Assembly (NCBI RefSeq): GCF_016495865.1
Contig: NZ_CP054706.1
Coordinates: forward strand, 496,001-560,000
Source of the DNA: Salicibibacter cibi
Lineage (GTDB): Bacteria; Bacillota; Bacilli; Bacillales; Marinococcaceae
DNA: 64,000 nt
Reading direction: 5' to 3'
In this document: positions 15,239 through 31,467 of the stretch, piece after piece
Position numbering within the stretch: the first letter of the stretch is position 1
How the letters are laid out: each line of letters starts with the position of its first letter
Made by a program: the position numbers and the translations under genes
Notes under the pieces: model-generated
The model's database searches: none
Told to the model about the DNA's origin: nothing
The model's input: the letters and a program-made list of their open reading frames with translations, nothing else

Positions 15239-16012
15239 GTGAGATTAAAAGAAAAGGTAGCACTAGTAACCGGTGGCGGATCTGGGATTGGTCGCAGTAC
15301 TTGTGAACTTTTTGCAAGGGAAGGTGCGAGCGTCATTGTCAATGACATGAATGATGAAGCGGGAAACGAAACTGTACAGCGTATTGAAGAAAAAGGTGGA
15401 AATGCATTATTTTTAAAAGCGGATGTTACAACTGAAGATGAAGTTCAAAAAATGGTAGAACAAATCCTTCAAAAGTTCGATAGTATTGATATTCTTTTCA
15501 ATAATGCCGGTATCAGTAGGGTAGGGCCGCTTCATAAAATAGACACCGAAGATTGGGAAAGGGTTGTAGATGTCAATTTAAAAGGCGTTTATCTTACAAG
15601 TAAGCATATTCTTCCAAATATGATAGAAAGACAGCAAGGTTCAATTATCAATATGTCTTCTTGTATCGCGGAAATTGGCTTGGCAGATCGAGCTGCTTAT
15701 GCTGCTACTAAAGGTGCGGTGCTCTCACTGACAAAGTCCATGCAAGTGGATTATGCGAGTGACAACATTCGTGTTAATGCCCTTTTACCGGGAACCGTCT
15801 ATACGCCCTTTGTAGAAAGATATCTAAAGGAATCCTATAGTGATCCTGAACAAGCCATTGAAAAGCTTAAGGGAAGACAACTGAGCGGGGAATTAGGTAC
15901 ACCGGAAAAAGTAGCGAAGGCTGCGTTGTTTCTAGCCTCGGATGATTCCGAATTAATGTTCGGGTCCCCTTTATATATCGACGGAGGAGTTACTTTCGGG
16001 AAAAATGCTTAG
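15239..16012 (+). CDS. Short-chain dehydrogenase/reductase
   Basis: A classical SDR of 257 residues. The Rossmann motif ALVTGGGSGIGR is near residue 8, NNAG near 86, the catalytic Ser in INMSSC near 137 and the YxxxK pair in AAYAATKGA near 151. GTG 15239 is chosen as start because it is 9 bases after AAAGGGG, whereas the in-frame TTG at 15230 directly abuts that site. The product should oxidise or reduce an alcohol/ketone with NAD(P). It is the first gene of an operon with a TRAP transporter, so it probably acts on the imported acid. Confidence 0.9.
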   Translation: MRLKEKVALVTGGGSGIGRSTCELFAREGASVIVNDMNDEAGNETVQRIEEKGGNALFLKADVTTEDEVQKMVEQILQKFDSIDILFNNAGISRVGPLHKIDTEDWERVVDVNLKGVYLTSKHILPNMIERQQGSIINMSSCIAEIGLADRAAYAATKGAVLSLTKSMQVDYASDNIRVNALLPGTVYTPFVERYLKESYSDPEQAIEKLKGRQLSGELGTPEKVAKAALFLASDDSELMFGSPLYIDGGVTFGKNA

Positions 16013-16053
16013 GAATTAAATAGTATAGTTAAAAACAGGGAGGGTAAAGATTC

Positions 16054-17073: not shown

Positions 17074-17092
17074 AGGGCATCGAGCTTGGTAG

Positions 17093-17138
17093 CGAGGGCA
17101 AGTGAATGTTTAACGCACTTGTCCTGCTATTTTTTAAG
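17093..17138 (+). terminator. Attenuator-like hairpin between dctP and dctQ
   Basis: GGCAAGTG (17097-17104) pairs with CACTTGTCC further on, extended by flanking AGC/GCT, and a T-run (ATTTTTT) follows. Its position inside an operon suggests partial termination that leaves more dctP than dctQM transcript. Confidence 0.65.
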
Positions 17139-17164
17139 AGAAAAAACGAGAAGGTGAAATTCTC

Positions 17165-17650
17165 ATGAATTTTGTAAAGCTATTGCGAAACATAGATGAT
17201 TATATCATTACAATTGCGATTGCGGGCACTATTATCGTTGTCAGCTCAAATATTTTCTTCAGATATGTACTAAATAGTCCAATAACATGGACAGAAGAAT
17301 TGAGTATTGCTTTTTTTGTATATGTAACATATTTTGGATTGAGCTCAGCTATGAAGCGGAACAGCCATATAGGAATCGACTACTTCGTTCGTAAACTCCC
17401 TGATCCATTATCATATTTTTTTCAATGGGTTAGACTTATTACGATCTTTGGCATCATACTTTTTGTTTTTGTTTACTTGGGCTTTCAATTGGCGTTAGAC
17501 ACCACCGCACAGACGTCCATCCTGGGAATTAGTTATATATATATTTATTTATCTATCCCGCTCGGAGGCATTTTAGCGCTTCTTCATTTGACGTACGTTA
17601 TTGTAACAAGGAATAAAGATTTTATTAAACACAACAAGGGAGCTTATTAG
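17165..17650 (+). CDS. dctQ: TRAP transporter small membrane subunit
   Basis: A 161-residue protein with four membrane segments (near residues 14-32, 47-64, 88-110 and 128-148). It contains TWTEELSIAFFVYVTYFGLSSAMKR, the conserved second-helix region of DctQ. The subunit helps couple the receptor to the DctM channel. It follows AGAAGGTG and ends 3 bases before dctM. Confidence 0.9.
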   Translation: MNFVKLLRNIDDYIITIAIAGTIIVVSSNIFFRYVLNSPITWTEELSIAFFVYVTYFGLSSAMKRNSHIGIDYFVRKLPDPLSYFFQWVRLITIFGIILFVFVYLGFQLALDTTAQTSILGISYIYIYLSIPLGGILALLHLTYVIVTRNKDFIKHNKGAY

Positions 17651-17653
17651 TCG

Positions 17654-18934
17654 ATGGATCTACTAATTACCATTCTCATCTTACTGGTTAGTATTTTATT
17701 GAACATCCCCGTTGCCTTAGCTCTCATTTTTAGCTCTGCGTATTACGTATTCATGTCTAATATTCCTAATGGCATTATTGTTCAACAAATGGTAGAAGGG
17801 TCTGTATCTTTTACGTTGCTAGCCATCCTTTTTTTCATCACCACCGGTAATTTAATGAACTATACCGGTATTACAACAAGGATCTTGAATTTTGCACAAA
17901 TCATCACCAGGCACACCATTGGCAAGCTTGCCAAAGTTAATGTCCTTCTAAGTACTATCATGGGTGGATTATCGGGCTCAAATATAGCCGATGCGGCGAT
18001 GAATTCGAAGATTCTTGTACCTAGGATGGAAGAAGAAGGATATGATAAAGGGTTTGCAACGGCATTAACCGCCGCAACCTCCCTCATCACACCTATTCTA
18101 CCGCCTGGGGTTGGATTGATTTTGTATGGGTTTGTAGGTAATGTCTCGATTGGAGACTTGTTTATGGCCGGTGTATTACCGGGTCTAGTGTTAGCATTTT
18201 TAATGATGGTGCTCAGTCATTTTATATCCAAACGTCGAAACTTTGAAGTCGAAAACAAACAACCGATGGCTAAGCCCAAAGAGGCGCTTATTGCTTTAAG
18301 GCCTGCATTGCTCGCAATTCTCCTACCGGTTATTATTATTGGAGGCATCCGACTTGGGGCTTTTGGGCCTTCAGAAGCTGGTGTTGTTGCTGTTCTCTAT
18401 GCGTTATTTCTCGGCTTAATTGTTTACCGTGAAATGAAGCTCCCTAAGCTTGCTCATGCATTGTTTGAAAGTGCCCAGTCAGCAGCAACAATCATGCTAA
18501 TCATTGCAGGAGGGTCAGCCTTTGGTTGGGTCCTGACTGTGGAACAAGTCCCACAACAGTTAACGGAATTTGTCAGCAGCTATGTGAATAATCCTTTCAT
18601 GTTTTTTATTGTAGCTTTGATTTTTCTCCTTTTCGCGGGCATGTTTCTTGAGGGGAACGTTTTGATCATGATTTTGACTCCACTTTTTATGCCCATGTTG
18701 GACACCTTCGGCGTTGATCCGGTGCATTTTGGTATATTTTTCGTATTTACGGTGAGTATTGGGACTCTAACACCCCCGGTGGGCACCATTTTGTTCACCA
18801 CCAGTTCCATCACTGGTGTATATATTGAAAAATTAATTAAGGAAATGTTACCTTTTTATGTTCTCCTTATTATCGCTGCTCTTCTTCTCGCTTTTATCCC
18901 TGCCATTAGTCTATGGTTACCGAATATATTATAG
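17654..18934 (+). CDS. dctM: TRAP transporter large membrane subunit
   Basis: A 426-residue DctM homologue with about twelve membrane segments. Typical motifs are the N-terminal NIPVALALIFSSA, GGLSGSNIADAAMNSKILVP near residue 105, TAATSLITPILPPGV near 140, GPSEAGVVAVLYAL near 240 and GTLTPPVGTILF near 375. It moves an organic acid with sodium ions. The operon with dctPQ and the SDR gene ends in the terminator at 18971. Confidence 0.94.
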   Translation: MDLLITILILLVSILLNIPVALALIFSSAYYVFMSNIPNGIIVQQMVEGSVSFTLLAILFFITTGNLMNYTGITTRILNFAQIITRHTIGKLAKVNVLLSTIMGGLSGSNIADAAMNSKILVPRMEEEGYDKGFATALTAATSLITPILPPGVGLILYGFVGNVSIGDLFMAGVLPGLVLAFLMMVLSHFISKRRNFEVENKQPMAKPKEALIALRPALLAILLPVIIIGGIRLGAFGPSEAGVVAVLYALFLGLIVYREMKLPKLAHALFESAQSAATIMLIIAGGSAFGWVLTVEQVPQQLTEFVSSYVNNPFMFFIVALIFLLFAGMFLEGNVLIMILTPLFMPMLDTFGVDPVHFGIFFVFTVSIGTLTPPVGTILFTTSSITGVYIEKLIKEMLPFYVLLIIAALLLAFIPAISLWLPNIL

Positions 18935-18970
18935 GGATCACAATTAATAGACTACATTCAGCAATAAATA

Positions 18971-18996
18971 ATAAGGGGGCCTTATGGGCCCCTTTG
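18971..18996 (+). terminator. Rho-independent terminator after dctM
   Basis: AAGGGGGCC and GGGCCCCTT pair around a TTAT loop and are followed by a T-rich tract (TTTGTTGT). It closes the SDR-dctPQM unit and separates it from the kinase operon. Confidence 0.8.
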
Positions 18997-19069
18997 TTGT
19001 ATTTCTAGTTTAACGATATATTTTTTGCTAATATATAAATAGGTCAATTCTATGGAGGTGCGACTGAAA

Positions 19070-20326
19070 TTGGCTTCCGAGCATCAGAGACTCGTGATGA
19101 TCGCCGATGATCTAACAGGTGCGAATGACAGTGGCGTTCAATTTACGAAAGACGGTTTTGAATCGACGGTACTCTTTCATGTGGATGAGGAAATTTTGCA
19201 GACGACAACAGGGCAAGTGTTGGTCGTTGATACGGATTCCAGGGCGTTGCAAGCCGGTGAAGCATATTCCCATGTGCATAAGGTGACGGAATATGTTAAC
19301 TCAGCCTCTTTCGATGTTTTTTATAAAAAAATAGATTCTACCTTACGCGGCAATATCGGGGCGGAGATTGAAGCGATACAGGTAGCAGGAGGTTTTGATC
19401 TGGTTGTGATTGCCCCGGCTTTCCCGGAAGCCGGACGTGTGACGATCGATGGGTTTCATTATGTGAACGATGTACCCATTGATCAAACATTGTTCGCGAA
19501 GGATCCCCATACTCCGGTTTCGGAGGCTTACATCCCATCTTTAATAAAAAAACAAACAGATCGTGAGGTGCTGGCAGTATCGATAGAAAGTGAATGGCCA
19601 GCAAATGAAGATGGAGTGCCTTGGCTTGTCTTCGATGCCAGAACGAATGAGGATCTGAAACAAATTGTCGAAAATGTCACAAGTGGTGAATACTCGCGAA
19701 TACTTTGGGTTGGCTCGGCCGGACTCGCGATACATGTATCAAAATGGTTTCAACGGATAACCAATAAAAAAGTGCTGACTGTTGCCGGAAGCGCATCGGA
19801 TGTAACTGTGCAACAAGTTCAACGTTTACTGGAAGAGAAAGATGTGGCGGGCATTCCAATTAACCCGGAATTGTTATTGAAGGGTGGATATAATAGTGAA
19901 GAAAAAGAAGAGTTGTTACAATCTATAGCAGCTGGTTACAGCAATAGAAAAGATATCCTGATATATTGTGATGTGAATGCTTACCCAGTTTCCAAGATCA
20001 TCGATATTGGGGATGCCTGCGGCTATTCAGCAAGTCAAGTAAGCGGGAAGATAGCTGAATTCATAGGCGAATTGGCTGCTAATGTGATCACACTTCATGA
20101 CATTGATCGGCTTATTTTAACAGGTGGCGAAACCGCAAAAAATGTAAGCAGAGCACTTTATGTGCAAGGCTTTAACCTCATGGGAGAGGTTGAAACCGGA
20201 ATTCCCATTAGTCAAATGCTCGGGACAAATATTCTTGCGGTCACGAAGGCGGGCGCTTATGGAAATGAGCAGTCCATCGTACGAGCATATGAGTTCTTAA
20301 AACAAGGGGGTGTTCATCATGGATAA
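19070..20326 (+). CDS. Four-carbon acid sugar kinase (DUF1537 family, DtnK-like)
   Basis: A 418-residue kinase. It starts at TTG 19070, 9 bases after GGAGGTG; the in-frame ATG at 19052 lies upstream of that site. The N-terminal motif VMIADDLTGANDSGVQF binds the acid sugar. YKKIDSTLRGNIGAE, APAFPEAGR and the C-terminal ATP-binding LILTGGETAKNVSRAL are family hallmarks. Characterised members phosphorylate threonate, erythronate or related C4 acids at O4. The next gene is a PdxA homologue, the partner known from D-threonate degradation, so D-threonate kinase is the best guess. The start of pdxA2 overlaps its 3' end. Confidence 0.88.
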   Translation: MASEHQRLVMIADDLTGANDSGVQFTKDGFESTVLFHVDEEILQTTTGQVLVVDTDSRALQAGEAYSHVHKVTEYVNSASFDVFYKKIDSTLRGNIGAEIEAIQVAGGFDLVVIAPAFPEAGRVTIDGFHYVNDVPIDQTLFAKDPHTPVSEAYIPSLIKKQTDREVLAVSIESEWPANEDGVPWLVFDARTNEDLKQIVENVTSGEYSRILWVGSAGLAIHVSKWFQRITNKKVLTVAGSASDVTVQQVQRLLEEKDVAGIPINPELLLKGGYNSEEKEELLQSIAAGYSNRKDILIYCDVNAYPVSKIIDIGDACGYSASQVSGKIAEFIGELAANVITLHDIDRLILTGGETAKNVSRALYVQGFNLMGEVETGIPISQMLGTNILAVTKAGAYGNEQSIVRAYEFLKQGGVHHG

Positions 20327-21317
20327 ACCTATTATTGCCATTACGATGGGGGATGCAGGCGGGATTGGCCCTGAAATCATCGTTAAGTTATTCAAGCGTC
20401 AAGACATTTTCAATCACTGTGTTCCTGTAGTCATTGGTGACGAAAAAATATTGAAAAAAGCGGAAAAGGACCTTCAAACAGGCGTTCATATTGATAAAGT
20501 CGATCGGATTGATACGCTTACAAATAAGGCAGGACGTATGCCTTGTTTGGATTTAAACATACTCCCAAATGACTTGCCTAAAGGGGAAGTGTCTGCGTCG
20601 GCAGGAGATGCAGCGTTTCGTTTTATTGAAAAAGCGGTTGAACTTGCCAATTTAGGGAAAATCAATGGTATTTGCACGGCGCCGCTCAATAAAGAGGCAC
20701 TGCATAAAGGAGGGCATCTGTATCCTGGGCATACGGAAATTCTGGCTGATCTGACGGATACAGATGATTTTGCCATGATGTTATCCGCTACGAATCTGAA
20801 AGTGATTCACGTGACAACACACGTCGGATTGTTAGAAGCGGTTCGTAGGATTGATGACAATCGTGTTTATAGTGTTGTGAAAATGGCGCATGAAACGCTT
20901 GTGAGAGCTGGCATCTCACAACCGAAGATCGGTGTATGCGGGATCAACCCCCATGCTGGTGAGAATGGTTTGTTCGGTGAAGGGGAGGAGGAGGAGAAAA
21001 TTGTACCTGCAATTGAACGCGCGAGATCAGGAGGGATAGAAGTAACCGGTCCTTTTCCTGCTGATACGTTGTTTTTTCGGGCAACGCGAGGCGACTTTGA
21101 TATTGTTGTCGCCATGTATCATGATCAAGGTCACGGGCCCATTAAAGTCCTCGGACTGGATAATGGGGTGAACATCACGGTCGGCCTGCCTATTATCCGT
21201 ACGAGTGTTGATCATGGTACAGCTTTCGATATTGCCGGGAAAGGGGTCGCCAGTGAAGATAGTCTTATTGAGGCGTTACTACAGGCTGCCGAGCTCGCAG
21301 GAACGAACGTTAAGTAA
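20319..21317 (+). CDS. pdxA2: PdxA2-type 4-phospho-acid-sugar dehydrogenase
   Basis: A 332-residue PdxA-family protein. ATG 20319 is 8 bases after AAGGGGG and overlaps the end of the kinase gene by 8 bases. Motifs are AITMGDAGGIGPEI at the N-terminus, YPGHTEILADLT, the metal-binding His in VTTHVGLLEA and YHDQGHGPIKVLG. PdxA oxidises 4-phosphohydroxythreonine in vitamin B6 synthesis. The PdxA2 branch, encoded beside DUF1537 kinases, oxidises and decarboxylates 4-phospho-D-threonate to dihydroxyacetone phosphate. Context, not a distinguishing residue, places this copy in the catabolic branch. Confidence 0.88.
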   Translation: MDKPIIAITMGDAGGIGPEIIVKLFKRQDIFNHCVPVVIGDEKILKKAEKDLQTGVHIDKVDRIDTLTNKAGRMPCLDLNILPNDLPKGEVSASAGDAAFRFIEKAVELANLGKINGICTAPLNKEALHKGGHLYPGHTEILADLTDTDDFAMMLSATNLKVIHVTTHVGLLEAVRRIDDNRVYSVVKMAHETLVRAGISQPKIGVCGINPHAGENGLFGEGEEEEKIVPAIERARSGGIEVTGPFPADTLFFRATRGDFDIVVAMYHDQGHGPIKVLGLDNGVNITVGLPIIRTSVDHGTAFDIAGKGVASEDSLIEALLQAAELAGTNVK

Positions 21318-21338
21318 TCACCTACAGAGGAGTCACTT

Positions 21339-22913
21339 ATGAAAACATCAATATCATATATTTTCGTGATTGCTACACTTATGGTCACCACAGGGTGTCA
21401 GCAACAACTCTCTGAAGCAGGCAGCAACAACGAGGATAGCCTTGTGATCTCCTGGCCGCAAGATATAGGTCTTCTGGATCCCCATGGTTATGGCGAGAAT
21501 CAGATGTTTGCCCAAAATCTTGTTTATGAGTCACTTGTGCAACACGACGAAGAAGGAGACATTAAACCCCATTTAGCTGAGTCATGGGAGATATCGGATG
21601 ATGGAAAAACCTATACCTTTTTCTTAAGGGAAGATGTGCAGTTCTCGGATGGTTCCGAATTTAACGCGGAGAATGCCAAAAAAAATTTCGATGCCGTCAT
21701 AGAGGCACCTGAAGACCATGCATGGTTAGAGCTGGCCAATCAAATTAACCGTACGGAAGTGATAGATTCTTTTACTTTTGAAATCACATTAGAAGATACT
21801 TATTATCCGCTACTCGAGGAGTTGGCGCTTGTGCGGCCTTTCCGTTTTCTCGGAGAAGCCGGTTTTAACGAGGATCAGCAATTCAAAGAACCGATCGGGA
21901 CGGGTCCATGGGTTCTACATGAGTACCGAAAGGATGAAGAAGCTGTATTTCATCGCAACGACCACTATTGGGGCGAAAAACCGGAAATGGAAGAACTGGT
22001 TGTGCGCGTGATTCCTGATGGCGATGCTCGTGTGATGGCTTTTGAAAACGGAGAAATTGATATGATTTATGGGAGCGGTTTAATCAGTTTAGATGCATTT
22101 GATCACTTGCAGAATAACGAGAATTATGAAACGGGCACATCCCCACCACAAGCTAACCGTGTAATGGCTTTAAATTCGAATCGAGGAGTTACTGAAGATC
22201 ATCTTGTTCGGCAAGCACTTATTCATGCATTTGATGCCCATAGTTTTATTGAAGATATGCTGTATGAGACCGAGGAGCATGCCACGAGCCTCTTTCCTGA
22301 TGATGCGCCATATCAACCGGATGATTTAGATCCATATGAGTATGATCCTTTGAAAGCTGAATCACTGCTGGAAGAAGCAGGTTGGGAACGGAGAGATGAT
22401 CATGAGATTCGGGAGAAAGACGGGCAACCATTGCAACTCACCTTTGTATTTGATGCGAATGATGAAATTCAAACCATTTTGGCAGAGTACATGCAAAGTG
22501 AACTTCGTGCTTTAGGGGTTGATATTGTTCTTTCCGGCGTGGACAACCAATCCTATCTTGATGCACAAAAAACTGGAGACTTCGATATTATTTACCATGA
22601 AACATGGGGAGCTCAGTATGATCCACATGCAATGCTGTCTTCCATGCGGGTTCCTTCGCATGCGGATTATCAGGCACAGCGGGGGTTGGCTGATAAAGAT
22701 GAGCTTGATGAAAAGATTAGTCAGGTCCTAGTTGAAACAGATGAGCAGCAAAGAGAAGAACAATATGATGATATAATAAGAACGCTGCATGACGAAGCCA
22801 TTTATGTACCGATTTCCAGTCCGTCAACAACCGGTATGTACCATAATGATATTGAAGGTGTTCGGTACTCTCCCATCCCCTATGAATTTTCTCTAGAGCA
22901 CATAAGGAGATAG
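21339..22913 (+). CDS. nikA: Nickel-binding lipoprotein of ABC transporter
   Basis: A 524-residue SBP_bac_5 receptor with a lipoprotein signal (lipobox VTTGC, Cys at residue 20). It resembles E. coli NikA closely over stretches that other peptide receptors lack: WPQDIGLLDPHGYGENQMFA, HAWLELANQI, ELALVRPFRF, GTGPW and SSMRVPSHADYQAQRGLADK. NikA captures nickel, probably as a chelate, and passes it to NikBC. The four remaining Nik genes follow directly, and the lar genes for a nickel enzyme come after them. Confidence 0.92.
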   Translation: MKTSISYIFVIATLMVTTGCQQQLSEAGSNNEDSLVISWPQDIGLLDPHGYGENQMFAQNLVYESLVQHDEEGDIKPHLAESWEISDDGKTYTFFLREDVQFSDGSEFNAENAKKNFDAVIEAPEDHAWLELANQINRTEVIDSFTFEITLEDTYYPLLEELALVRPFRFLGEAGFNEDQQFKEPIGTGPWVLHEYRKDEEAVFHRNDHYWGEKPEMEELVVRVIPDGDARVMAFENGEIDMIYGSGLISLDAFDHLQNNENYETGTSPPQANRVMALNSNRGVTEDHLVRQALIHAFDAHSFIEDMLYETEEHATSLFPDDAPYQPDDLDPYEYDPLKAESLLEEAGWERRDDHEIREKDGQPLQLTFVFDANDEIQTILAEYMQSELRALGVDIVLSGVDNQSYLDAQKTGDFDIIYHETWGAQYDPHAMLSSMRVPSHADYQAQRGLADKDELDEKISQVLVETDEQQREEQYDDIIRTLHDEAIYVPISSPSTTGMYHNDIEGVRYSPIPYEFSLEHIRR

Positions 22914-22918
22914 GGAAC

Positions 22919-23866
22919 ATGGTTGCTTTAATCACTCGACGAATACTGATGCTTTTTCCATCTTTGTTGTTTCTCTCGATGTTCGTATTTTTACTAATGC
23001 ATATGATCCCAGGGGATCCAGCACAAGCTTATTTGACATTATCACAAATTCCGCCTACGGATGAGGCGATCGCAGCCGCTAGAGGGGAATTAGGCTTGGA
23101 TCTCCCCCTTTATGAGCAGTATTGGAATTGGCTCATTTCTGCACTGCAACTTGATTTTGGGACATCCTTTTTGACGGGTGAACGTGTTCTTGAAGAAGTG
23201 TTGTATTATTTTCCTTCAACTTTACAATTGAGTCTCGCCGCTTTTTTATTTACGATAACGATTAGTGTGCTGATCGGTATTTTTTCTGCTCGTTATCAAC
23301 AGCGCTTATTCGATACATTCAGTCGTCTATTCTCCGTGGGAGGTTCCGCAATACCTACTTTCTGGCTTGGTTTTCTTCTTGTCTATTTTTTCTCCTATCA
23401 GTTGGGGTGGTTACCATCAGGGGGAAGAGGGGGTTGGACCAGTTTGGTGTTACCGATGCTCACTCTTTCCATTCCTTACATTGCATTATTTAGTCGTTTA
23501 CTAAGAACAAGCTTGCTGGAAGTGAGCAAGGCTTCATATGTTACGTACAGCCGAGCTCGTGGACTTCGGGAACCATCCATTTTTAGAAGGCATATTCTCC
23601 GTCATGCCCTTTTGCCTCTCCTTACGGTGTCGGGGGTGGCACTAGGGTATCTACTAGCCGGCACTGTTATCGTTGAGAGCGTGTTTTCCTGGCCGGGTAT
23701 GGGCAGATATATGGTAACGGCGATCACCAACCGTGATTACCCTGTGATCCAATTTTACATCGTTTTCATGGCGTTTATTTTTCTGATCGTTAACATGATC
23801 GTTGATTTGTTGCAATTATGGGTGGATCCAAGATTACGTAGCAAAGAAGGATCACCCAATGTTTAG
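22919..23866 (+). CDS. nikB: Nickel ABC transporter permease
   Basis: A 315-residue permease of the DppB/NikB type with six membrane segments. The N-terminal RRILMLFPSLLFLSMFVF and the residues around MIPGDPAQAYL are typical. The ATPase-contacting EAA loop is near residue 215 (YSRARGLREPSIFRRHILRH). FSWPGMGRYMVTAITNRDYPV near residue 260 is very like NikB. It starts 5 bases after the nikA stop, behind AAGGAGA. Confidence 0.9.
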   Translation: MVALITRRILMLFPSLLFLSMFVFLLMHMIPGDPAQAYLTLSQIPPTDEAIAAARGELGLDLPLYEQYWNWLISALQLDFGTSFLTGERVLEEVLYYFPSTLQLSLAAFLFTITISVLIGIFSARYQQRLFDTFSRLFSVGGSAIPTFWLGFLLVYFFSYQLGWLPSGGRGGWTSLVLPMLTLSIPYIALFSRLLRTSLLEVSKASYVTYSRARGLREPSIFRRHILRHALLPLLTVSGVALGYLLAGTVIVESVFSWPGMGRYMVTAITNRDYPVIQFYIVFMAFIFLIVNMIVDLLQLWVDPRLRSKEGSPNV

Positions 23867-24674
23867 GATTTTATGGAAGAAGAAAGCATTAATCTTTAGT
23901 GGTTCTATCCTCTTGCTGGTATTTCTTTTTGCATTGTTGGCGCCTTTTGTTGTTCCCGTTGACCCGTTTGACGGTGACACTTCACATCGTTTGCTGCCTC
24001 CTTCCTTTGAATACTGGTTTGGAACGGATCATTTGGGTCGTGATGTTTTCTCACGTTTATTGTATGGGGCGCGCTATAGTCTTCTCGGAGCTCTTACCGT
24101 GACCATCATTGCAACGATACTCTCTATAGTGATCGGAACATTTGCTGGTTATAAAGGCGGCTGGTTGGATCAAATATTCATGCGTCTCAGTGAATGGATG
24201 CTTGCCTTTCCGAGTCTGATGATTGCTCTCGTCCTGGTCGGTATGTTTGGTCCGGGGATGATTAATTTAATGCTTGCGCTTGTTCTTGTTTTCTGGATGC
24301 CGGAAGCTCGACTTATTCGAAATATGGTTGTGCGTTTAAAAGAAGAACGATATGTACACGTAGCCAAGCTTCATGGAGTCTCTTCGTTCCGGGTCATCAC
24401 GCGTCATCTTTTTCCTTTCGTATTGCCACACGTGCTCGTAATGGCGACGCTTAACGTTGGAAGTGTGCTGTTACATATCGCTGGTTTTTCATTTCTAGGA
24501 CTCGGAATACAACCTCCCCTCCCGGAATGGGGAGCGATGTTAAACGCAAGCAGTGATTATTTTTACAGTGCGCCTTGGTTGATGATCTTTCCCGGTTTAA
24601 TTATTTTCGTGATTGTTCTTTCATTTAATATCCTTTCCGACTATTGGAGAGACACTTTGAATTTACAAAAGTAA
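23859..24674 (+). CDS. nikC: Nickel ABC transporter permease
   Basis: A 271-residue permease of the DppC/NikC type. ATG 23859 overlaps the end of nikB by 8 bases and follows GAAGGA; the longer open frame to 23802 is not needed. HLLGTD-type motif FGTDHLGRDVFSRLLYGAR is near residue 45. The EAA loop MVVRLKEERYVHVAKLHGVS is near 155, and GFSFLGLGIQPPLPEWG near 210. It pairs with NikB to form the nickel channel. Confidence 0.9.
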   Translation: MFRILWKKKALIFSGSILLLVFLFALLAPFVVPVDPFDGDTSHRLLPPSFEYWFGTDHLGRDVFSRLLYGARYSLLGALTVTIIATILSIVIGTFAGYKGGWLDQIFMRLSEWMLAFPSLMIALVLVGMFGPGMINLMLALVLVFWMPEARLIRNMVVRLKEERYVHVAKLHGVSSFRVITRHLFPFVLPHVLVMATLNVGSVLLHIAGFSFLGLGIQPPLPEWGAMLNASSDYFYSAPWLMIFPGLIIFVIVLSFNILSDYWRDTLNLQK

Positions 24675-24685
24675 AGGTGATGAAC

Positions 24686-25465
24686 ATGCTGGACGTCGAT
24701 CGATTAAGTATCTTGGCCCAAAATCAGCACCCACTTCTCAAAAATATATCTTTTTCGCTTTCATCCGGGAAAACATTAGGGGTGATTGGGGAGAGCGGAG
24801 CAGGAAAAACCTTGCTTAGTAATGCGCTCATACGGTTGTTAGATCCAGCGTTTCACGTAAGTGGACAGATTTATTTTCAAGGAAAGGCACTCATGACGTT
24901 ATCAACGAAAGAAATGACTCGTTTACGTGGGAAAGAGATTGGATTTTTAACTCAGCATCCTTTTTCTGCATTTGACCCCATATATACGGTAGAGAAGCAA
25001 ATGATCGACACGATTCGAACGCATTTCACCTGTACGAAAAAAGAAAGTCGCAAAGTGGCCATGCTTATGCTGAACAAGATGGCTTTTGAGGATCCTGAGC
25101 GGTTGTTTCAACGCTATCCTTTTGAGCTGAGCGGTGGTATGATGCAAAGAGTGATGATGGCCTTAATGATGGCATTAAAGCCTAAAATGATGATTGCAGA
25201 TGAGCCGACGACGGCGATGGATACTATAACTCAGCGGGAAGTGCTTCATCAATTTGACTTATTACGAAGTGATGGAACTGAGGCGATGTTGCTCATTACA
25301 CATGATTTAGGTGTATTGGCTAAACTCGCTGATGAAGTTCTTGTATTAAAATCAGGTTCAGTGGTCGAATGGTTGTCTGTCGATAAGTTTTTTAAAAACC
25401 CGGAACATGGTTACACGAGAAGCTTACTTACGTCGTATTTGAAGTTCCATGGAGTGAATGCGTAA
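24686..25465 (+). CDS. nikD: Nickel ABC transporter ATPase
   Basis: A 259-residue ABC ATPase with Walker A GESGAGKT (residues ~35-42), Q-loop at FLTQHP, signature LSGGMMQRVM, Walker B MMIADEPTTAMD and switch His in LLITHD. The start at ATG 24686 lies 6 bases after AAAGGTG; an ATG at 24680 touches that site. Its stop TAA shares a base with the nikE start. It powers nickel uptake together with NikE. Confidence 0.9.
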   Translation: MLDVDRLSILAQNQHPLLKNISFSLSSGKTLGVIGESGAGKTLLSNALIRLLDPAFHVSGQIYFQGKALMTLSTKEMTRLRGKEIGFLTQHPFSAFDPIYTVEKQMIDTIRTHFTCTKKESRKVAMLMLNKMAFEDPERLFQRYPFELSGGMMQRVMMALMMALKPKMMIADEPTTAMDTITQREVLHQFDLLRSDGTEAMLLITHDLGVLAKLADEVLVLKSGSVVEWLSVDKFFKNPEHGYTRSLLTSYLKFHGVNA

Positions 25466-26238
25466 TGGTTGTGGAAGTAAAAAAAGTAGCAAAGCGTTAT
25501 GGAAAAAAGAACGCCACTCAGGTATTACGAGATGTTTCTTTGCAAATCGAACAAGAGACATGTGTAGCCCTGCTGGGGGCAAGTGGTGTAGGCAAAAGTA
25601 CGTTAGGGCGTATAATGGTCGGGTTGGAACGTCCAGATGAAGGTGCTATTTTCGTCCAGGGCGAGCGTTTGCTTGTTGCCAAGCACAAACGTTTTAGAAA
25701 TAAAGTTCAGATGGTATTTCAAGATCCGCAGTCCGCATTTAACCCACGCCTGACGCTAGCTGAAAGTCTGGCCGAGCCTTTATGGGTGGAACGGGTCAGT
25801 AAACGCGAGTGTGATAAACGAATCGGTGCAATGTCAGAAGATGTTCAACTCGATCAGGAATTTTTGGATCGTTACCCTGAGCAATTAAGCGGGGGGCAAC
25901 TACAACGGGCAGCGATAGCTCGTGCCCTGATTTGCCGTCCTTCATTTGTTGTGTTGGATGAAGTTGTTAGTAGTCTGGATGTTATCCATCAACATCATAT
26001 CCTTGACTTACTTCATGGATTGAAAGAAAGGTATGGACTCTCTTACTTATTCATTACGCACGATTTTCAAGCAGCAAAGTATATTGCTGAGCGCATCGCA
26101 GTCCTCTATGGCGGTAAAGTGGTTGATCAGATTAAAAAGAAGGAAAATGAAGGGTGGCAATGTTTTAAGCATCCACATGCGTTACGTTTGCAAAAAGCGG
26201 TGTTGGCACCACACGGAATTTTATCGCGTTTTATTTAA
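25465..26238 (+). CDS. nikE: Nickel ABC transporter ATPase
   Basis: A 257-residue ABC ATPase with Walker A GASGVGKST, Q-loop FQDPQSAFNPR (the DppF/NikE form), signature LSGGQLQRAAIARAL, Walker B FVVLDEVVSSLD and LFITHDF. It is translationally coupled to nikD through a TAATG overlap. It is the last gene of the kinase-pdxA2-nik unit; a new promoter region with a cre-like box follows before the KdgT gene. Confidence 0.9.
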   Translation: MVVEVKKVAKRYGKKNATQVLRDVSLQIEQETCVALLGASGVGKSTLGRIMVGLERPDEGAIFVQGERLLVAKHKRFRNKVQMVFQDPQSAFNPRLTLAESLAEPLWVERVSKRECDKRIGAMSEDVQLDQEFLDRYPEQLSGGQLQRAAIARALICRPSFVVLDEVVSSLDVIHQHHILDLLHGLKERYGLSYLFITHDFQAAKYIAERIAVLYGGKVVDQIKKKENEGWQCFKHPHALRLQKAVLAPHGILSRFI

Positions 26239-26243
26239 TACTA

Positions 26244-26294
26244 TTATACTTTGTTGTATAATTAACATTAGAAAATTGCTTGTAAACGCTTACT
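26244..26294 (+). promoter_or_regulatory. Promoter and operator region before kdgT, with a cre-like box
   Basis: TTATAC and GTATAA (26244-26249, 26256-26261) form an inverted repeat overlapping a TATAAT -10 box (26257-26262). TGTAAACGCTTACT at 26281-26294 matches the CcpA consensus at all fixed positions but the last. A site just downstream of the -10 box would repress by roadblock. The -35 region is weak. Confidence 0.65.
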
Positions 26295-26320
26295 GTTCTA
26301 TCAAAAGGAGGCCAATAGCA

Positions 26321-27412
26321 TTGAGGATTAAAGATACTATTGAGAAAGTGCCGGGAGGTCTAATGGTTGTTCCGCTCATGTTGGGAGCAACGTTAAATAC
26401 GATTGACCAGCTTCAAATTCCTTTTATTGTAGAATTTCTAAGAATTTTGGGCGCACCTGAGCTGGAAAATGGAAATTATGAGTTTTTAAGAATCGGGGGG
26501 TTCACCCAAGATTTATTTAAGGACGGGGCTATGGTGCTGATTGCCTTGTTCCTCTTTTGCGCCGGTAGCCAGATGAATTTAAAGATCGGACGAAAAGCAC
26601 TCAAGATTGGATCTATTTTGTTGGTATCGAAATACCTGTCAGGTCTGGCAGTGGGTCTTCTCTTTGGCTATTTCTTTGATCCAATGGACGGGTTGCTTGG
26701 CTTATCGATGGTTGCCATTATTGCTGGTATGACAAACGGAAATGGTGGGATGTATGCAGCGTTGACAAGTCAATATGGGCGTCGCTCTGATATTGGTGGT
26801 GTGGCTGTGCTATCATTAAATGATGGGCCGTTCTTTACCATGATTTCACTCGGTATTATTGGTCAAAGTTTCCCTTTTATCTCTTTTATAGCCGTGTTGC
26901 TTCCCATTGCCATTGGAATGATTCTTGGGAATTTAGATGAGAAGATGCGTGATTTTCTTAAAGCGGGGGAAATTCTCCCTGTGCCATTCTTTGCGTTTGC
27001 CCTTGGTGCAGGCATGAATTTGACGTTATTTTTTAATATGGATGTCTTGGGAGCAGGCGTTACCATCGGTTTAATGACAACAATTGTCACCGGATTTGCA
27101 GGAATGTTAGCGTTCAAGTTGTTCCGGGAAAGAAGCTATATTGCACCTTGGGCAGAAGCTTCTACAGCAGGGAACGCAACAGCAACTCCAGCAGCGATTG
27201 CATCCGCTGCAGCTGTATCAGGGGGCTCGGGCGCAATGCTTCAAGCAGATGTAGAAATGTATGAAGCCCTTGTTCCAATAGCCACCGCACAAATTTCACT
27301 TGCGGTTATTGTTACTGCGATCCTTTGTCCAATCGCTGTCATTCTTGTGGACCGTTATCAACGTAAGCGCGGCATTGATGGACGTTTAGAAGATGATGAA
27401 GTAGAAAAATAG
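26321..27412 (+). CDS. kdgT: 2-keto-3-deoxygluconate permease family (KdgT)
   Basis: A 363-residue membrane protein. It starts at TTG 26321, 9 bases after AAAGGAGG; the open frame continues upstream to 26033 only through the 3' end of nikE. There are about ten hydrophobic segments. Family motifs include KVPGGLMVVPLMLGATLNT at the N-terminus, AGMTNGNGGMYAAL near residue 140, SLNDGPFF near 165 and the Ala/Thr-rich EASTAGNATATPAAIA near 280. KdgT imports 2-keto-3-deoxy sugar acids with protons. Beside lar and the acid sugar kinase it more likely brings in the pathway's sugar acid. Confidence 0.88.
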   Translation: MRIKDTIEKVPGGLMVVPLMLGATLNTIDQLQIPFIVEFLRILGAPELENGNYEFLRIGGFTQDLFKDGAMVLIALFLFCAGSQMNLKIGRKALKIGSILLVSKYLSGLAVGLLFGYFFDPMDGLLGLSMVAIIAGMTNGNGGMYAALTSQYGRRSDIGGVAVLSLNDGPFFTMISLGIIGQSFPFISFIAVLLPIAIGMILGNLDEKMRDFLKAGEILPVPFFAFALGAGMNLTLFFNMDVLGAGVTIGLMTTIVTGFAGMLAFKLFRERSYIAPWAEASTAGNATATPAAIASAAAVSGGSGAMLQADVEMYEALVPIATAQISLAVIVTAILCPIAVILVDRYQRKRGIDGRLEDDEVEK

Positions 27413-27428
27413 TGAAAGGTGATACAAC

Positions 27429-28694
27429 ATGAAACAAACACTATTGTATGGCCAAGAAGATTTAGATGTTCAGGTTCCGGACGATACAGTCGTTATAGAA
27501 CCATCGAATATTCCAGCACTTGAAAGACAGGAGGAAGCGATTCTTGAAGCCATGAACACGCCCATCGGGACACCACCTCTTAGAGAGGTGGTGACCGAAA
27601 CAGATACAGTGGCGATCGTGATCAGTGATATTACAAGACCAACGCCCAACGATATCCTCGTCCCTACGATTATAAAGACGCTGGACCATGTCCCGCTGAA
27701 AAATATCGTGATTATTAATGGAACCGGCACCCACCGCGACCAAACAAAGGATGAATTTGTGGGGATGCTCGGACAATGGATTGTAGACAACATCCGCATC
27801 GTTAATAACCATTGCCATGAAAAAGATGAACATGTCAAAGTGGGCCATAGTTCTTACGGTTGTGACGTCTATTTAAATAAAGAGTACGTGGAAGCCGATT
27901 TCCGTATTAGCACAGGGTTTATTGAACCGCATTTTTTCGCCGGCTTTTCCGGAGGACCAAAAGGTATCATGCCGGGGATTGCAGGCATTGAAACAATCAT
28001 GACGTTTCACAATGCCCGTATGATTGGTGATCTCCGTTCTACATGGGGGAACATGGAAGATAACCCTTTGCAAAATATGACGCGTGAAATCAATCAGATG
28101 TGCAAGCCTGATTTTATGTTGAATGTAACCCTCAATCGAGAAAAGGACATTACGGAAGTTTTCGCAGGAGAATTGTATGAAGCCCATGATAAAGGATGTG
28201 AGTATGTAAAGGAACACGCAATGGTGCAATGTGACGAACGTTTTGATGTCGTGATCACCTCGAATTCCGGTTACCCGCTTGACCAAAACCTTTACCAAGC
28301 GGTTAAAGGAATGAGCGCCGCACAAAAGATTGTGAAAGAAGGCGGTAGCATCATCGTCGCTTCTGAGTGTTCCGACGGATTACCCGGTCATGGGAATTAT
28401 GCCGACATTCTGAAGATGGCAGACACACCACAGCAATTGTTGGAGATGATCGAGGATCCGGAATTTAAGATGTTTGATCAGTGGCAAGTGCAGAAGCAAG
28501 CCGTTATACAGGTCTGGTCAGATGTATATGTATACTCCGGGCTAAGTGATGAGCAAGTAAAAACAGCGATGCTCAAGCCAAGCCAATCGATTGAAGAGAC
28601 GTTAGCTGAACTTCGTAGAAAATATGGTGAACAGATGTCAGTGGCCATTTTGCCACTCGGACCTTTAACGATCCCGTATGTAGAAGAGAAATAA
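27429..28694 (+). CDS. larA: LarA-family nickel-pincer racemase/epimerase
   Basis: A 421-residue member of the lactate racemase superfamily, which uses a nickel-pincer nucleotide to invert C2 of 2-hydroxy acids by hydride transfer. The key residues of L. plantarum LarA (His108, His174, Lys184, His200) have exact counterparts shifted by six: His102 in GTGTHRD, His168 and Lys178 in EPHFFAGFSGGPKGIMPG, and His194 in TFHNARM. The cofactor genes larE, larB and larC follow. The superfamily includes enzymes for malate, phenyllactate, hydroxyglutarate and gluconate, so lactate is not assured. Neighbours point to a sugar acid. A strong hairpin lies inside the gene at 27571-27593. Confidence 0.92.
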   Translation: MKQTLLYGQEDLDVQVPDDTVVIEPSNIPALERQEEAILEAMNTPIGTPPLREVVTETDTVAIVISDITRPTPNDILVPTIIKTLDHVPLKNIVIINGTGTHRDQTKDEFVGMLGQWIVDNIRIVNNHCHEKDEHVKVGHSSYGCDVYLNKEYVEADFRISTGFIEPHFFAGFSGGPKGIMPGIAGIETIMTFHNARMIGDLRSTWGNMEDNPLQNMTREINQMCKPDFMLNVTLNREKDITEVFAGELYEAHDKGCEYVKEHAMVQCDERFDVVITSNSGYPLDQNLYQAVKGMSAAQKIVKEGGSIIVASECSDGLPGHGNYADILKMADTPQQLLEMIEDPEFKMFDQWQVQKQAVIQVWSDVYVYSGLSDEQVKTAMLKPSQSIEETLAELRRKYGEQMSVAILPLGPLTIPYVEEK

Positions 28695-28707
28695 AAGGGG
28701 AGATAAC

Positions 28708-29526
28708 ATGAAACAAGCAGAAAAGCTACACGCACTCCAAGAGTTGTTGGCAGAATTAAAAACGGTCGTAGTGGCGTATTCCGGTGGTGTAGATAGCACA
28801 TTTTTATTAGCTGTTGCTTTGCAGACATTAGGCAAAGACCATGTGCTGGCGGTGACGGCAAACTCCGAAACGCTTCCTGAACGGGAACTCGCGGAGGCAA
28901 AGGAATTCGCGGCGAGCTTAGGTGCACATCATCAAGTGATAGAAACATCAGAATTAGCCGTTGAAGGCTTTGAGGATAACTTGCAAAATCGTTGCTATTT
29001 GTGCCGTGATAATCTGTTTGAGAATTTACGGCCAATTTTAGAAGCTGAAGGCTTTGAAAATATTGTTTTCGGATTGATTGCTGATGATATGGGTGAGCAC
29101 CGACCCGGTGTTGTTGCAGCCAGAGAACACGGCGTACGCGGTCCTCTTCAAGAAGTAGAGTTATATAAAGACGAGATACGGGCGCTATCACAAGAGATGG
29201 GCTTGAGTACATGGAATAAGCCTTCCTATGCCTGTTTGGCATCACGAATTGCTTACGAAGAAAAGATCACTATCGGAAAATTAGAAAAGGTGGACCAGGC
29301 AGAACAATGCGTACAATCCTTCGGTGTTCGTCAAGTGCGCGTACGTGCTCACGAACAGATCGCCCGCATTGAAGTGGAGCCCGGAGATATGGAAAAGGTG
29401 CTCAATCATCATGATGAGATTACCGGTCAGCTACGTGAACTAGGGTTTGTCTACGTAACACTAGATTTAGCAGGTTACAAAAGCGGCAGCATGAATGCTG
29501 CCTTAGCCACAGAAAAAGCGAACTGA
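28708..29526 (+). CDS. larE: ATP-dependent sulfur transferase for nickel-pincer cofactor
   Basis: A 272-residue PP-loop protein. The ATP-binding AYSGGVDSTFLL is at residues 23-34. Cys176 in SYACLASRI falls at the same number as the sacrificial Cys176 of L. plantarum LarE, which gives up its sulfur to the cofactor. Two more Cys (RCYLCRD, residues 96 and 99) form a second pair. LarE adds sulfur to the pyridinium biscarboxylate mononucleotide made by LarB. It starts 13 bases after larA behind AAAAGGGGA. Confidence 0.93.
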   Translation: MKQAEKLHALQELLAELKTVVVAYSGGVDSTFLLAVALQTLGKDHVLAVTANSETLPERELAEAKEFAASLGAHHQVIETSELAVEGFEDNLQNRCYLCRDNLFENLRPILEAEGFENIVFGLIADDMGEHRPGVVAAREHGVRGPLQEVELYKDEIRALSQEMGLSTWNKPSYACLASRIAYEEKITIGKLEKVDQAEQCVQSFGVRQVRVRAHEQIARIEVEPGDMEKVLNHHDEITGQLRELGFVYVTLDLAGYKSGSMNAALATEKAN

Positions 29527-29536
29527 GAGGGGAAGT

Positions 29537-30220
29537 ATGACAAATTTTGAAGATCTTGGTTTTAGCAAAGTGGATTATGATCGGGAAGAACGTACAGGTT
29601 TCCCGGAAATCGTATATGGCTTGTCCAAAACAAGTGAACAGTTAAAAAAAATTGTCGAAAAGCTCGTTTCGAATCATAACAAAACCCTGGTTACCCGCAT
29701 TAGTAAAGAGAAGGCTACGGATGTGATGGCTTCAGTTCCCGGAGGTGATTACTGTGCACGCTCACAAACCCTTGTTTATGGTGAAAATGAACCGCTAGAC
29801 GAGGGGTACGTATTGATTGCATGTGCGGGCACGTCGGATCTTCCTGTGGCTGATGAAGCTGCACGTACATGTAAATGGATGGGCTGTCGAGTGAAAACAT
29901 TATACGATGTGGGTGTTGCCGGGATCGATCGCTTGCTTGCCCATCGCGAACTCATTCAAGGGGCAAGCGTGGTCATTGTGATTGCAGGCATGGAGGGCGC
30001 GTTGGCAAGCGTGGTCGGGGGATTGGTGAAGCGCCCGGTCATCGCGGTCCCAACATCTGTGGGTTATGGAACGAATCTTGAAGGTCTCACACCACTTTTG
30101 GCTATGCTTAATTCCTGTTCATCGGGCATGAGTGTGGTTAATATTGACAACGGGTTTGGTGGGGCATATCAAGCGACTCTTATAATGAAATTGGCAGTTG
30201 ATGGAGGGCATCCGAATTGA
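29537..30220 (+). CDS. larB: Nicotinate adenine dinucleotide carboxylase/hydrolase
   Basis: A 227-residue LarB. The C-terminal two thirds resemble PurE (AIR carboxylase): ACAGTSDLPVADEAA, VVIVIAGMEGALASVVGGL and VPTSVGYG. LarB carboxylates nicotinic acid adenine dinucleotide and releases AMP, the first step of nickel-pincer synthesis. It begins 10 bases after larE (GAGGGGAAG) and its stop overlaps the larC start. Confidence 0.93.
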   Translation: MTNFEDLGFSKVDYDREERTGFPEIVYGLSKTSEQLKKIVEKLVSNHNKTLVTRISKEKATDVMASVPGGDYCARSQTLVYGENEPLDEGYVLIACAGTSDLPVADEAARTCKWMGCRVKTLYDVGVAGIDRLLAHRELIQGASVVIVIAGMEGALASVVGGLVKRPVIAVPTSVGYGTNLEGLTPLLAMLNSCSSGMSVVNIDNGFGGAYQATLIMKLAVDGGHPN

Positions 30221-31467
30221 AAACCTTATATATCGACACAGTATCTGGTATTGCCGGAGATATGACACTGGCTGCGCTTGCGGATTTGGGGGTAAATCTG
30301 GAGAAAGTTGCTGTTGATTTGCGAACATTACCCATTGATACTTTTGCGATGGATACAAAAAATATCGACAAGAAAGGGATATCGTCAAAGCAATTACTGC
30401 TTACGCTTGATGAGGAACATAGCCATCAACATGGTCACGGACATCACCATAGTCATAACCATGATCATTCACACGACCATCATCACCATCGCAAAGCGTC
30501 TGACATTCTGGCAATGATTGCAGATAGCGAGCTTCCAGAACGGGTGAAAGAAAGAAGTATGAAAATATTTGAAGTCATCGCGGATTCTGAAGGTAAAATC
30601 CATGGGATGGACCCAAAAGATGTCCATTTCCATGAGGTCGGCGCCATGGATTCCATTATTGATATTATCGGTGTTTGCTTGGCGTTAGAGCAATTGGACG
30701 TTGATCAAATTACGGCTTCACCCGTGCCCACCGGATCTGGCAAGTTGCATATGGCACATGGACTTTATCCAATTCCGGCACCGGCAACGGCTGATTTGTT
30801 AAAAGGAATACCATTAGTATCATTTGACGTTACCGGTGAACTCACAACTCCTACAGGTGCCGGGATATTAAAAGCACTAAGTAATCATTTCGGACCGATT
30901 CCCGAGGGAACGATCACTGGCATTGGTTATGGTGCCGGAAAAAAAGATTTCCCCCATCACCCCAATGTTTTACGTGTGCTGCTCATGGAAGGTGTGCAAA
31001 GCCATCAAAACCAGGAAAGGATCCATATCCTGGAATGCCAAGTCGATGATATGACAGGTGAAGTGCTAGGCTATACGATGGAGAAATTGTTTGAAATTGG
31101 TGTACTGGACGCGTATTATACACCTGTTTATATGAAAAAAAACCGACCTGGTGTGTTGATTACGGCACTTACAGACACACTTCATGTGGATGAAGCAGAA
31201 AAATGCCTGTTAGAAGAGACAAGCACATTTGGGGTAAGACGTACAGAGGCAAAGCGACACCCTTTACATCGTAAAGTTGAATCCTTTTCCACCTCACTGG
31301 GTGACGTTAGAGTAAAGATAGGGTATGATAAAAATAAAACGTATCAAACCTCGCTTGAGTATGAAGACATTAGGCAGATTGCACAAAAAGAGGGCAAATC
31401 TTTTGCGCATGTATATGAAAGGGTTTGGCGAGAAATCAGCATTGACGATCAAATAAACCATCAGTAA
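30217..31467 (+). CDS. larC: Nickel insertion protein (LarC1-LarC2 in one frame)
   Basis: A 416-residue LarC that inserts nickel into the pincer cofactor with CTP. Translation begins at TTG 30217 behind GGAGGG, overlapping larB by four bases. The N-terminal IDTVSGIAGDM is typical. Residues 68-91 are almost all histidine (with Asp, Asn, Ser), a likely nickel store. The middle has HFHEVGAMDSIIDI, and the C-terminal CTP/nickel part starts around residue 265 (LECQVDDMTGEVLGY). In L. plantarum the two halves are joined by a programmed frameshift; here they are one open frame, so no shift is needed. Confidence 0.94.
   Translation: MKTLYIDTVSGIAGDMTLAALADLGVNLEKVAVDLRTLPIDTFAMDTKNIDKKGISSKQLLLTLDEEHSHQHGHGHHHSHNHDHSHDHHHHRKASDILAMIADSELPERVKERSMKIFEVIADSEGKIHGMDPKDVHFHEVGAMDSIIDIIGVCLALEQLDVDQITASPVPTGSGKLHMAHGLYPIPAPATADLLKGIPLVSFDVTGELTTPTGAGILKALSNHFGPIPEGTITGIGYGAGKKDFPHHPNVLRVLLMEGVQSHQNQERIHILECQVDDMTGEVLGYTMEKLFEIGVLDAYYTPVYMKKNRPGVLITALTDTLHVDEAEKCLLEETSTFGVRRTEAKRHPLHRKVESFSTSLGDVRVKIGYDKNKTYQTSLEYEDIRQIAQKEGKSFAHVYERVWREISIDDQINHQ

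Follow-up and report, generated by a model that had tools for sequence, protein, structure and literature searches.

A conserved nickel-pincer isomerase operon in Salicibibacter cibi with a proposed role in the use of glycerate and, possibly, four-carbon sugar acids

The window analysed here, a stretch of 64,000 nucleotides from Salicibibacter cibi (bases 496001-560000 of the single 3.81 Mb contig NZ_CP054706.1), carries a block in which genes for a DUF1537-family four-carbon (C4) acid sugar kinase and a PdxA2-type dehydrogenase are followed by nikABCDE for a nickel importer, a gene for a KdgT-family sugar-acid permease and larAEBC for the nickel-pincer isomerase LarA and its companions LarE, LarB and LarC. 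With moderate confidence we read LarA as an isomerase of small aldonates with two outlets, of which glycerate comes first and C4 acids are a possible second. Glycerate is the better-supported main substrate because of the GarK-KdgT-LarA linkage seen in related loci, GarK being a glycerate kinase, and because of the F,F,W,Q specificity signature of the enzyme.

Predicted substrates, transport, flux and regulation would be as follows. The kdgT-larAEBC genes would be a unit under catabolite control that handles small sugar acids. KdgT would import C3 and perhaps C4 aldonates, LarB, LarE and LarC would build the nickel-pincer cofactor with nickel delivered by NikABCDE, and LarA would invert C2 via proton-coupled hydride transfer. 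The main reaction would interconvert L-glycerate and D-glycerate, the latter being handed to GarK, which is encoded at 1.03 Mb. The DUF1537 kinase and PdxA2 would provide the second outlet by converting D-threonate to dihydroxyacetone phosphate, and LarA may also feed this outlet by epimerising D-erythronate.

Conserved neighbours, active site and control signals of the LarA clade

We compared the best 80 of 177 confirmed related loci (71-79% identity, up to 10 kb on each flank). As the best were taken, the sample is biased towards close relatives, and as several loci end at contig ends, all counts of neighbours are lower bounds. The genes were clustered and examples of the commonest clusters were named by family search; LarA itself was lost by open reading frame picking in L026, L074 and L081. 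A CdaR-type sugar-diacid regulator is present in 67/80 loci, GarK in 65/80 and KdgT in 64/80. KdgT and LarA are consecutive in 63 loci, and a complete GarK-KdgT-LarA run on one strand occurs in 57. The GarK example scores 488 bits with PF02595 and 482 bits with TIGR00045, for which the cut-off is 168. In some loci, such as L009, L010 and L017, KdgT shares only 34-36% identity with that of the window. A chance cluster is ruled out by these 80 loci together with the counts in 299 genomes given below.

Genes of C4 acid metabolism are found less often. DUF1537 was detected in 15/80 loci by BLAST (13/80 by clustering), PdxA in 15/80 and either of them in 18/80 within the fetched flanks. A consecutive LarA-DUF1537-PdxA arrangement is present in seven loci (L010, L029, L030, L043, L050, L056 and L064), and the genome of L056 (G006) features a GarK-KdgT-LarA-DUF1537-PdxA-LarE-LarB-LarC run. 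The first-pass annotation, which took LarA for a C4 enzyme, had named conservation of lar independent of dtnK-pdxA2 as an argument against itself, and such independence is largely what we observe, with GarK in 65 loci against DUF1537 in 15 and with eight of 50 searched genomes having the operon without PdxA2. The conserved partner of the LarA clade is glycerate kinase; coupling to C4 kinase and PdxA2 is found in some lineages, perhaps including that of the window. The recurrent GarK-KdgT-LarA operon with its sugar-diacid regulator points to a specific role for LarA, namely glycerate racemisation.

The active site is consistent with this role. LarA from the window has the catalytic residues H102 and H168, the nickel-pincer nucleotide (NPN) lysine K178, the nickel ligand H194 and the phosphate residue R70, and its specificity residues F169, F170, W352 and Q353 make up the F,F,W,Q signature. 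In an alignment of 84 LarA proteins (the 80 loci, the window and genomes G007, G026 and G027) 13 catalytic, cofactor and specificity positions are identical in every row, F,F,W,Q throughout. According to the available parts of PMC11770544, the lactate group obeys an F,F,W,E/Q rule at positions 175, 176, 358 and 359 of LarA1, and LarAH43, which has Q at the specificity site, exhibits kcat/KM values of 1.1e5 for glycerate and 8.3e4 for lactate. Identity of the window protein as a hexonate epimerase (GntE) or malate racemase is ruled out by NCBIfam scores and signature.

A site resembling a catabolite-responsive element (cre) precedes kdgT (Table 1) and fits the strict cre pattern used here. Five strict matches are present in the 64 kb, against 0.6 expected from single-base shuffling. 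Upstream of the related operons a cre-like motif occurs in 38/77 loci (three were dropped, LarA being first in the locus or unpicked), compared with a mean of 1.8/80 at places drawn randomly from these loci irrespective of coding, not from intergenic DNA alone. Further strict matches in the window lie at 15199 (-), 13778 (-) and 16825 (+), the first of them between a divergent AraC-type regulator gene and the SDR-TRAP unit situated upstream of the block.

Separate control of kdgT-lar is deduced from the 82-bp gap in front of kdgT, which holds a promoter-like pair in addition to the cre-like site. The promoter-like pair is weak when taken alone, since the region has 37 such matches versus 36.7 in shuffles. 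From these signals, kdgT-larAEBC probably constitutes a catabolite-controlled unit with its own promoter, possibly independent of the kinase promoter; read-through from the kinase unit is possible. At the other end, a terminator-like hairpin stands between the SDR-TRAP unit and the kinase block. We also considered a nickel/cobalt riboswitch ahead of nik or lar and rejected it, since at gathering thresholds the only Rfam matches in the window are a group II intron and a thiamin pyrophosphate (TPP) riboswitch.

Association with PdxA2 and competing explanations

A survey of the order covered 299 genomes, of which 20 contain a LarA of this clade (E <=1e-150) and 63 contain PdxA2 (E <=1e-110). PdxA2 occurs in 18 of the 20 LarA genomes compared with 45 of the 279 without LarA (odds ratio 47, p 1e-11), as judged by Fisher tests, which ignore kinship. 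UxaA-type PF20629, a sugar-acid enzyme taken as control, is found in 12/20 LarA genomes and 78/279 others (odds ratio 3.9, p 0.005), and the link between LarA and PdxA2 is kept in both control strata (10/12 vs 24/78 and 8/8 vs 21/201). The link is genuine and well beyond that of the control. Two-subunit UxaA-type dehydratase genes (small subunit plus GD_AH_C) also appear near LarA in L013, L015, L028, L044, L056 and L076. As a key to the substrate, the dehydratase beside LarA (6 or 7 loci) was set aside, NCBIfam giving only galactarate dehydratase, below cut-off.

LarA genomes contain 19 PdxA2 places; at 8 of these LarA is no more than 10 kb away, and at 13 no more than 30 kb. On a LarA tree of 84 rows, proximity of PdxA (17 rows) takes 12 label changes to explain, and well-supported branches force a minimum of 6; the label shows some clustering, with 3/500 shuffles as low. 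PdxA2 was further searched for in the genomes of 50 of the 80 loci, hand-chosen for spread, and at the threshold used was found in 37. Eight of the 13 PdxA2-less genomes (L017, L020, L021, L038, L061, L063, L069 and L072) keep GarK-KdgT-LarA, so the LarA operon also occurs where PdxA2 is absent. Compared by neighbourhood, as the first-pass annotation had proposed, the clade has 57 GarK-KdgT-LarA runs against seven of LarA-DUF1537-PdxA.

A second nickel-pincer enzyme has to be taken into account. A sequence cluster found beside TRAP and PdxA genes corresponds to NCBIfam NF052515, nickel-pincer isomerase group 22, whose function is unnamed there. Group 22 exceeds its cut-off in 47 of the 299 genomes, of which 29 contain PdxA2 (34/252 for genomes without group 22), and PdxA2 is located within 5 kb of it at 16 of 30 PdxA2 places in group 22 genomes. 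Group 22 is a closer neighbour of PdxA2 than LarA. It also co-occurs with LarA (14/20 LarA genomes vs 33/279 others), and five of the eight PdxA2 places that lie no more than 10 kb from LarA have a group 22 gene within that distance too. As sole cause of the link between LarA and PdxA2, group 22 was rejected, as the link holds in genomes with it (13/14 vs 16/33, p 0.007) and without it (5/6 vs 29/246, p 2e-4). A TRAP-PdxA-group 22-NicO module adjoins the CdaR/GarK-KdgT-LarA module in L008, L011, L034 and L045; in these loci and in L018, L032 and L042, group 22 is accompanied by DctPQM and by PdxA or DUF1537. Group 22 is a candidate C4 acid isomerase family. The modules are split, C4 with group 22 and C3 with LarA, and a LarA dedicated to C4 epimerisation is therefore disfavoured. 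The window genome has a single group 22 gene at 0.44 Mb (NF052515, 538 bits vs a cut-off of 400) in a separate TRAP locus, and its product is likely a second user of the LarBCE cofactor. The gene resides at 8923-10176 of L098 (C1:442923-444176) with TRAP and 2-hydroxyacid dehydrogenase genes; enolase-superfamily, aldolase-like and aldehyde dehydrogenase genes were recognized nearby by eye.

That LarA is mainly a C4 aldonate 2-epimerase, converting D-erythronate to D-threonate for the DUF1537 kinase and PdxA2 with nickel from NikABCDE, was the proposal of the first-pass annotation. It is a possible explanation but ranks second. DUF1537 and PdxA are the sole sugar-acid kinase and dehydrogenase in the block, and the direct runs in seven loci, the PdxA2 statistics and the repeated changes on the LarA tree all speak for a C4 connection. 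In the available parts of PMC11770544, the lactate-group LarA proteins tested accept 4-deoxy-threonate/erythronate (kcat/KM 3-170 for four enzymes) and 2,4-dihydroxybutyrate, but these C4 activities span 3-400 per M per s, the same four enzymes showing 12-1.1e5 with glycerate and 200-1e5 with lactate. Table 2 of that paper lists no reaction of threonate or erythronate as such; each word was counted five times in the main text, and as far as the available parts show, these uses stand in the abstract or Table 2 or refer to the 4-deoxy compounds. An active-site difference between PdxA-linked and other LarA proteins was sought and rejected, as 0/13 of the positions checked change beside PdxA; other columns differ in frequency between the two sets of rows, most at positions 4 and 258. 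GarK is far commoner beside LarA than DUF1537, group 22 often provides C4 modules with an isomerase of their own, and the C4 module of the nearest relative, G007, stands apart from lar, equipped with another KdgT and a regulator-like gene. The co-occurrence with PdxA2 is genuine, while a dedicated C4 role is not favoured by a constant GarK partner and an invariant F,F,W,Q signature.

A broader idea, which we put forward tentatively, is that nickel-pincer isomerases, either this LarA clade or group 22, might be regular and interchangeable front ends of the DUF1537-PdxA2 pathway in Bacillota that invert C2 of a C4 aldonate and so lead both epimers to dihydroxyacetone phosphate, the same LarA acting also as glycerate racemase for GarK. 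If this is true, one LarA serves both outlets in L010, L029, L043 and L056, which have a GarK-KdgT-LarA-DUF1537-PdxA arrangement and in whose genomes group 22 was not found; LarA may do so in these cases. At least one group 22 gene is present in the genomes of the other three loci with direct runs (L030, L050 and L064). Since PdxA2 is tied to two families of nickel-pincer isomerases, the use of C4 sugar acids may involve a nickel-dependent step.

It is improbable that LarA is an ordinary lactate racemase placed by chance in a sugar-acid island. The protein passes the NCBIfam cut-off for nickel-dependent lactate racemase and has the F,F,W,Q signature, and two relatives occur among lactate-type genes. 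In L041, GlcD-like and GlcF-like genes (by eye) and a gene for LctP (361 vs 341 bits) directly precede LarA-E-B-C, and in G027 a LutA-like gene (best model below cut-off) is divergent from LarA. The permease in the G027 locus is CstA-like by eye. Lactate permease and lactate dehydrogenase, however, are not among the block genes of the window, L041 is the only lactate-type context by eye among the 21 loci without GarK or KdgT beside LarA (four genes on each side), and GarK is present in most loci. Least probable of all is a neighbourhood without biochemical link, in which genes for C3 acids, C4 acids and nickel are gathered by a shared diet and by the dependence of both nickel-pincer isomerases on one LarBCE set: the enrichment of the control dehydratase in LarA genomes, the co-occurrence of LarA with group 22 and the apparently separable transcription of kdgT-lar fit it, but the PdxA2 odds ratio far exceeds that of the control, the PdxA2 enrichment holds in both control strata, and direct LarA-DUF1537-PdxA runs exist.

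Several observations weigh against a small-aldonate isomerase that acts on glycerate first. GarK and the CdaR regulator are not encoded in the window locus, the sole PF02595 match of the genome residing at C1:1031372, about 508 kb from the block, and the presence of GarK alone is uninformative as it is found in 29/29 genomes of the family. GarK is also not beside LarA in G007, L004, L005 and L048, and a strict cre match is absent at the corresponding place in these four. In L010, L029, L043 and L056 a C4 role is favoured because LarA adjoins DUF1537-PdxA and group 22 was not found in the genome. The lactate contexts of L041 and G027 imply that the clade may serve different small acids in different hosts. 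Some glycerate kinases need no racemase to act weakly on L-glycerate (30% in T. tenax; PMC2063504, available parts). LarAH42 belongs to the lactate group and is poor on glycerate (12; PMC11770544). LarAIp has Q, yet prefers lactate and 2-hydroxybutyrate, then L-glycerate (PMC11851776, available parts), so Q at position 359 is not diagnostic of glycerate.

Architecture of the block and genomic surroundings

As the first-pass annotation had described, the DUF1537 kinase gene, pdxA2, nikABCDE, the KdgT-type permease gene and larA-larE-larB-larC are all present on the plus strand in this order with minimal gaps and every frame open (Table 1). Gaps are at most 21 bp or replaced by overlaps, as between the kinase and pdxA genes, the 82 bp between nikE and kdgT being the exception. 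The kinase gene starts with TTG at 19070, with a GGAGGT box ahead as read from the DNA.

Table 1. Features of the block and its upstream border (window coordinates; bit scores are given against model cut-offs where these apply)
Feature	Position	Strand	Basis
SDR dehydrogenase and DctP-DctQ-DctM TRAP transporter, unit upstream of block	15230..18934	+	family matches; kept with nik-kdgT-lar in G007
Terminator-like hairpin closing the SDR-TRAP unit	18968..19000	+	15 pairs, then T-rich tail
DUF1537-family four-carbon acid sugar kinase	19070..20326	+	PF07005 200 bits, PF17042 97 bits, PDB 4xfm 144 bits
PdxA2-type putative 4-phospho-D-threonate dehydrogenase	20319..21317	+	ATG start; TIGR00557 367 vs 290, passes
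NikA, nickel-binding protein of ABC importer	21339..22913	+	TIGR02294 640 vs 393, passes
NikB permease	22919..23866	+	nickel permease model NF045470 378 vs 350, passes; TIGR02789 393 vs 447, below
NikC permease	23802..24674	+	NF045474 304 vs 300, passes; TIGR02790 315 vs 358, below
NikD ATPase	24644..25465	+	CntF/CntD/NikD models 285/281/246 bits, each below cut-off
NikE ATPase	25465..26238	+	TIGR02769 268 vs 333, below
Promoter-like pair TTAATA-16-TATAAT before kdgT	26235..26262	+	motif match
cre-like site TTGTAAACGCTTACT before kdgT	26280..26294	+	fits strict cre pattern
KdgT-family sugar-acid permease	26321..27412	+	TTG start; PF03812 292 bits
LarA, nickel-pincer 2-hydroxyacid racemase/epimerase, lactate/glycerate group	27429..28694	+	NF033504 553 vs 460, passes
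LarE, sulfur transferase for nickel-pincer cofactor	28708..29526	+	TIGR00268 357 vs 150, passes
LarB	29537..30220	+	NF033503 288 vs 175, passes
LarC nickel insertase (LarC1+LarC2)	30217..31467	+	TIGR00299 and NF052512 over cut-off; PF01969 464 bits

Neither C4 enzyme reaches a D-threonate-specific cut-off. The best NCBIfam model for the kinase is that of D-threonate kinase DtnK (NF047819, 295 vs 450 bits), and PdxA scores 346 bits with the D-threonate-4-phosphate dehydrogenase model PRK03371, for which 583 are needed. In the PDB, PdxA matches 4jqp best (445 bits), with 298 bits for the D-threonate 4-phosphate dehydrogenase 6e85. The Nik permeases pass Opp2B/Opp2C nickel models, the ATPases pass no nickel model, and translation of NikC probably begins downstream of the TTG listed for it.

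The lar operon of Lactiplantibacillus comprises a nickel transporter, for which our literature search gave no confirming paper. Nik-like genes recur near lar in L022, L073 and, more weakly, L052, and a NicO-type permease is encoded in 17/80 loci, its example being barely over the Pfam cut-off (28.2 vs 27.7). A dedicated nickel supply for lar is plausible and not unique to the window; the tie between nickel importer and lar that the first-pass annotation saw recurs, but is not exclusive.

Within the family, LarA is present in 9/29 genomes (1/4 in the genus of the window) and DUF1537 in 26/29. The window genome contains three PdxA genes, two of which reside just left of the window together with a second DUF1537 kinase gene; the first of these paralogues is 41% identical to the PdxA of the block. 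This kinase gene and the two pdxA genes that follow it (L096 13887-18473, C1:491887-496473) reach into the window from the left, some 19 kb away from the block, and the same locus holds what appears by eye to be a transporter of the tripartite tricarboxylate type preceded by a DeoR-like regulator. In loci L096-L104, names of genes for which no family search was made (DeoR-like, Tct-like, PrpR-like, enolase-like, permease, methyltransferase) were assigned by eye. The nearest relative G007 (LarA 90% identical) keeps an SDR-DctPQM-nikABCDE-kdgT-larAEBC order, whereas its genes for DUF1537 (38% identical to that of the window) and PdxA are situated 3' of lar, from which a regulator-like gene and a second kdgT separate them. 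G007 retains the association of C4 genes with lar, at another position and with a different kinase. Between SDR and DctP, G007 has short frames similar to an enolase-superfamily gene (L099 4141-4979), which are absent from the window.

Just downstream of lar, Rfam matches a group II intron at 34136-34213 (+), and the adjacent frames around 32042-34124 appear by eye to be pieces of a reverse transcriptase. A TPP riboswitch at 36631-36733 (-) is found upstream of a gene for an ArgE/DapE-family deacylase at 35210-36481 (-; PRK08596, 728 vs 412 bits, passes). The riboswitch ahead of this gene hints that its product works in salvage of a thiamin precursor and is not an acetylornithine deacetylase.

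Relation to known systems

The lactate racemase group (LarA1, LarAH43, LarAH51 and LarAIp) resembles LarA from the window in family, catalytic and cofactor residues, adjoining LarBCE and the F,F,W,E/Q rule. The members studied are promiscuous in vitro, and their physiological significance is stated as still to be determined (PMC11770544, available parts). In contrast to that group, LarA from the window is set among a KdgT permease, a C4 kinase, PdxA2 and a Nik importer, and most of its 80 relatives sit with glycerate kinase and a CdaR-type regulator. A role in glycerate metabolism would question the automatic label "lactate racemase" in many Bacillaceae. Our literature search, which left most subscription papers and supplements outside, did not find the term "glycerate racemase" or a paper combining "lactate racemase" with "glycerate kinase"; among the matches listed, lactate racemase appeared together with DUF1537, PdxA2, threonate or erythronate in PMC11770544 only.

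The D-gluconate 2-epimerases GntE (LarAH19/20) are sugar-acid LarA proteins (PMC7583248 and PMC11770544, available parts) that share with the reaction proposed here the inversion of C2 of an aldonate by the same cofactor. Unlike GntE, LarA from the window attains only 33 bits with the NCBIfam putative hexonate epimerase model, the cut-off being 500, and is devoid of the E,V,A,H signature. Group 22 (NF052515) is likewise of the nickel-pincer type and close to PdxA2, but makes up a different family.

The D-threonate pathway, reportedly described by Zhang and colleagues (PNAS, 2016), consists of a DUF1537 kinase (DtnK) and PdxA2, and genes for both are also part of the block. The block departs from that pathway in that its kinase and PdxA stay below the D-threonate equivalog cut-offs and in that a nickel-pincer isomerase and a nickel importer are added.

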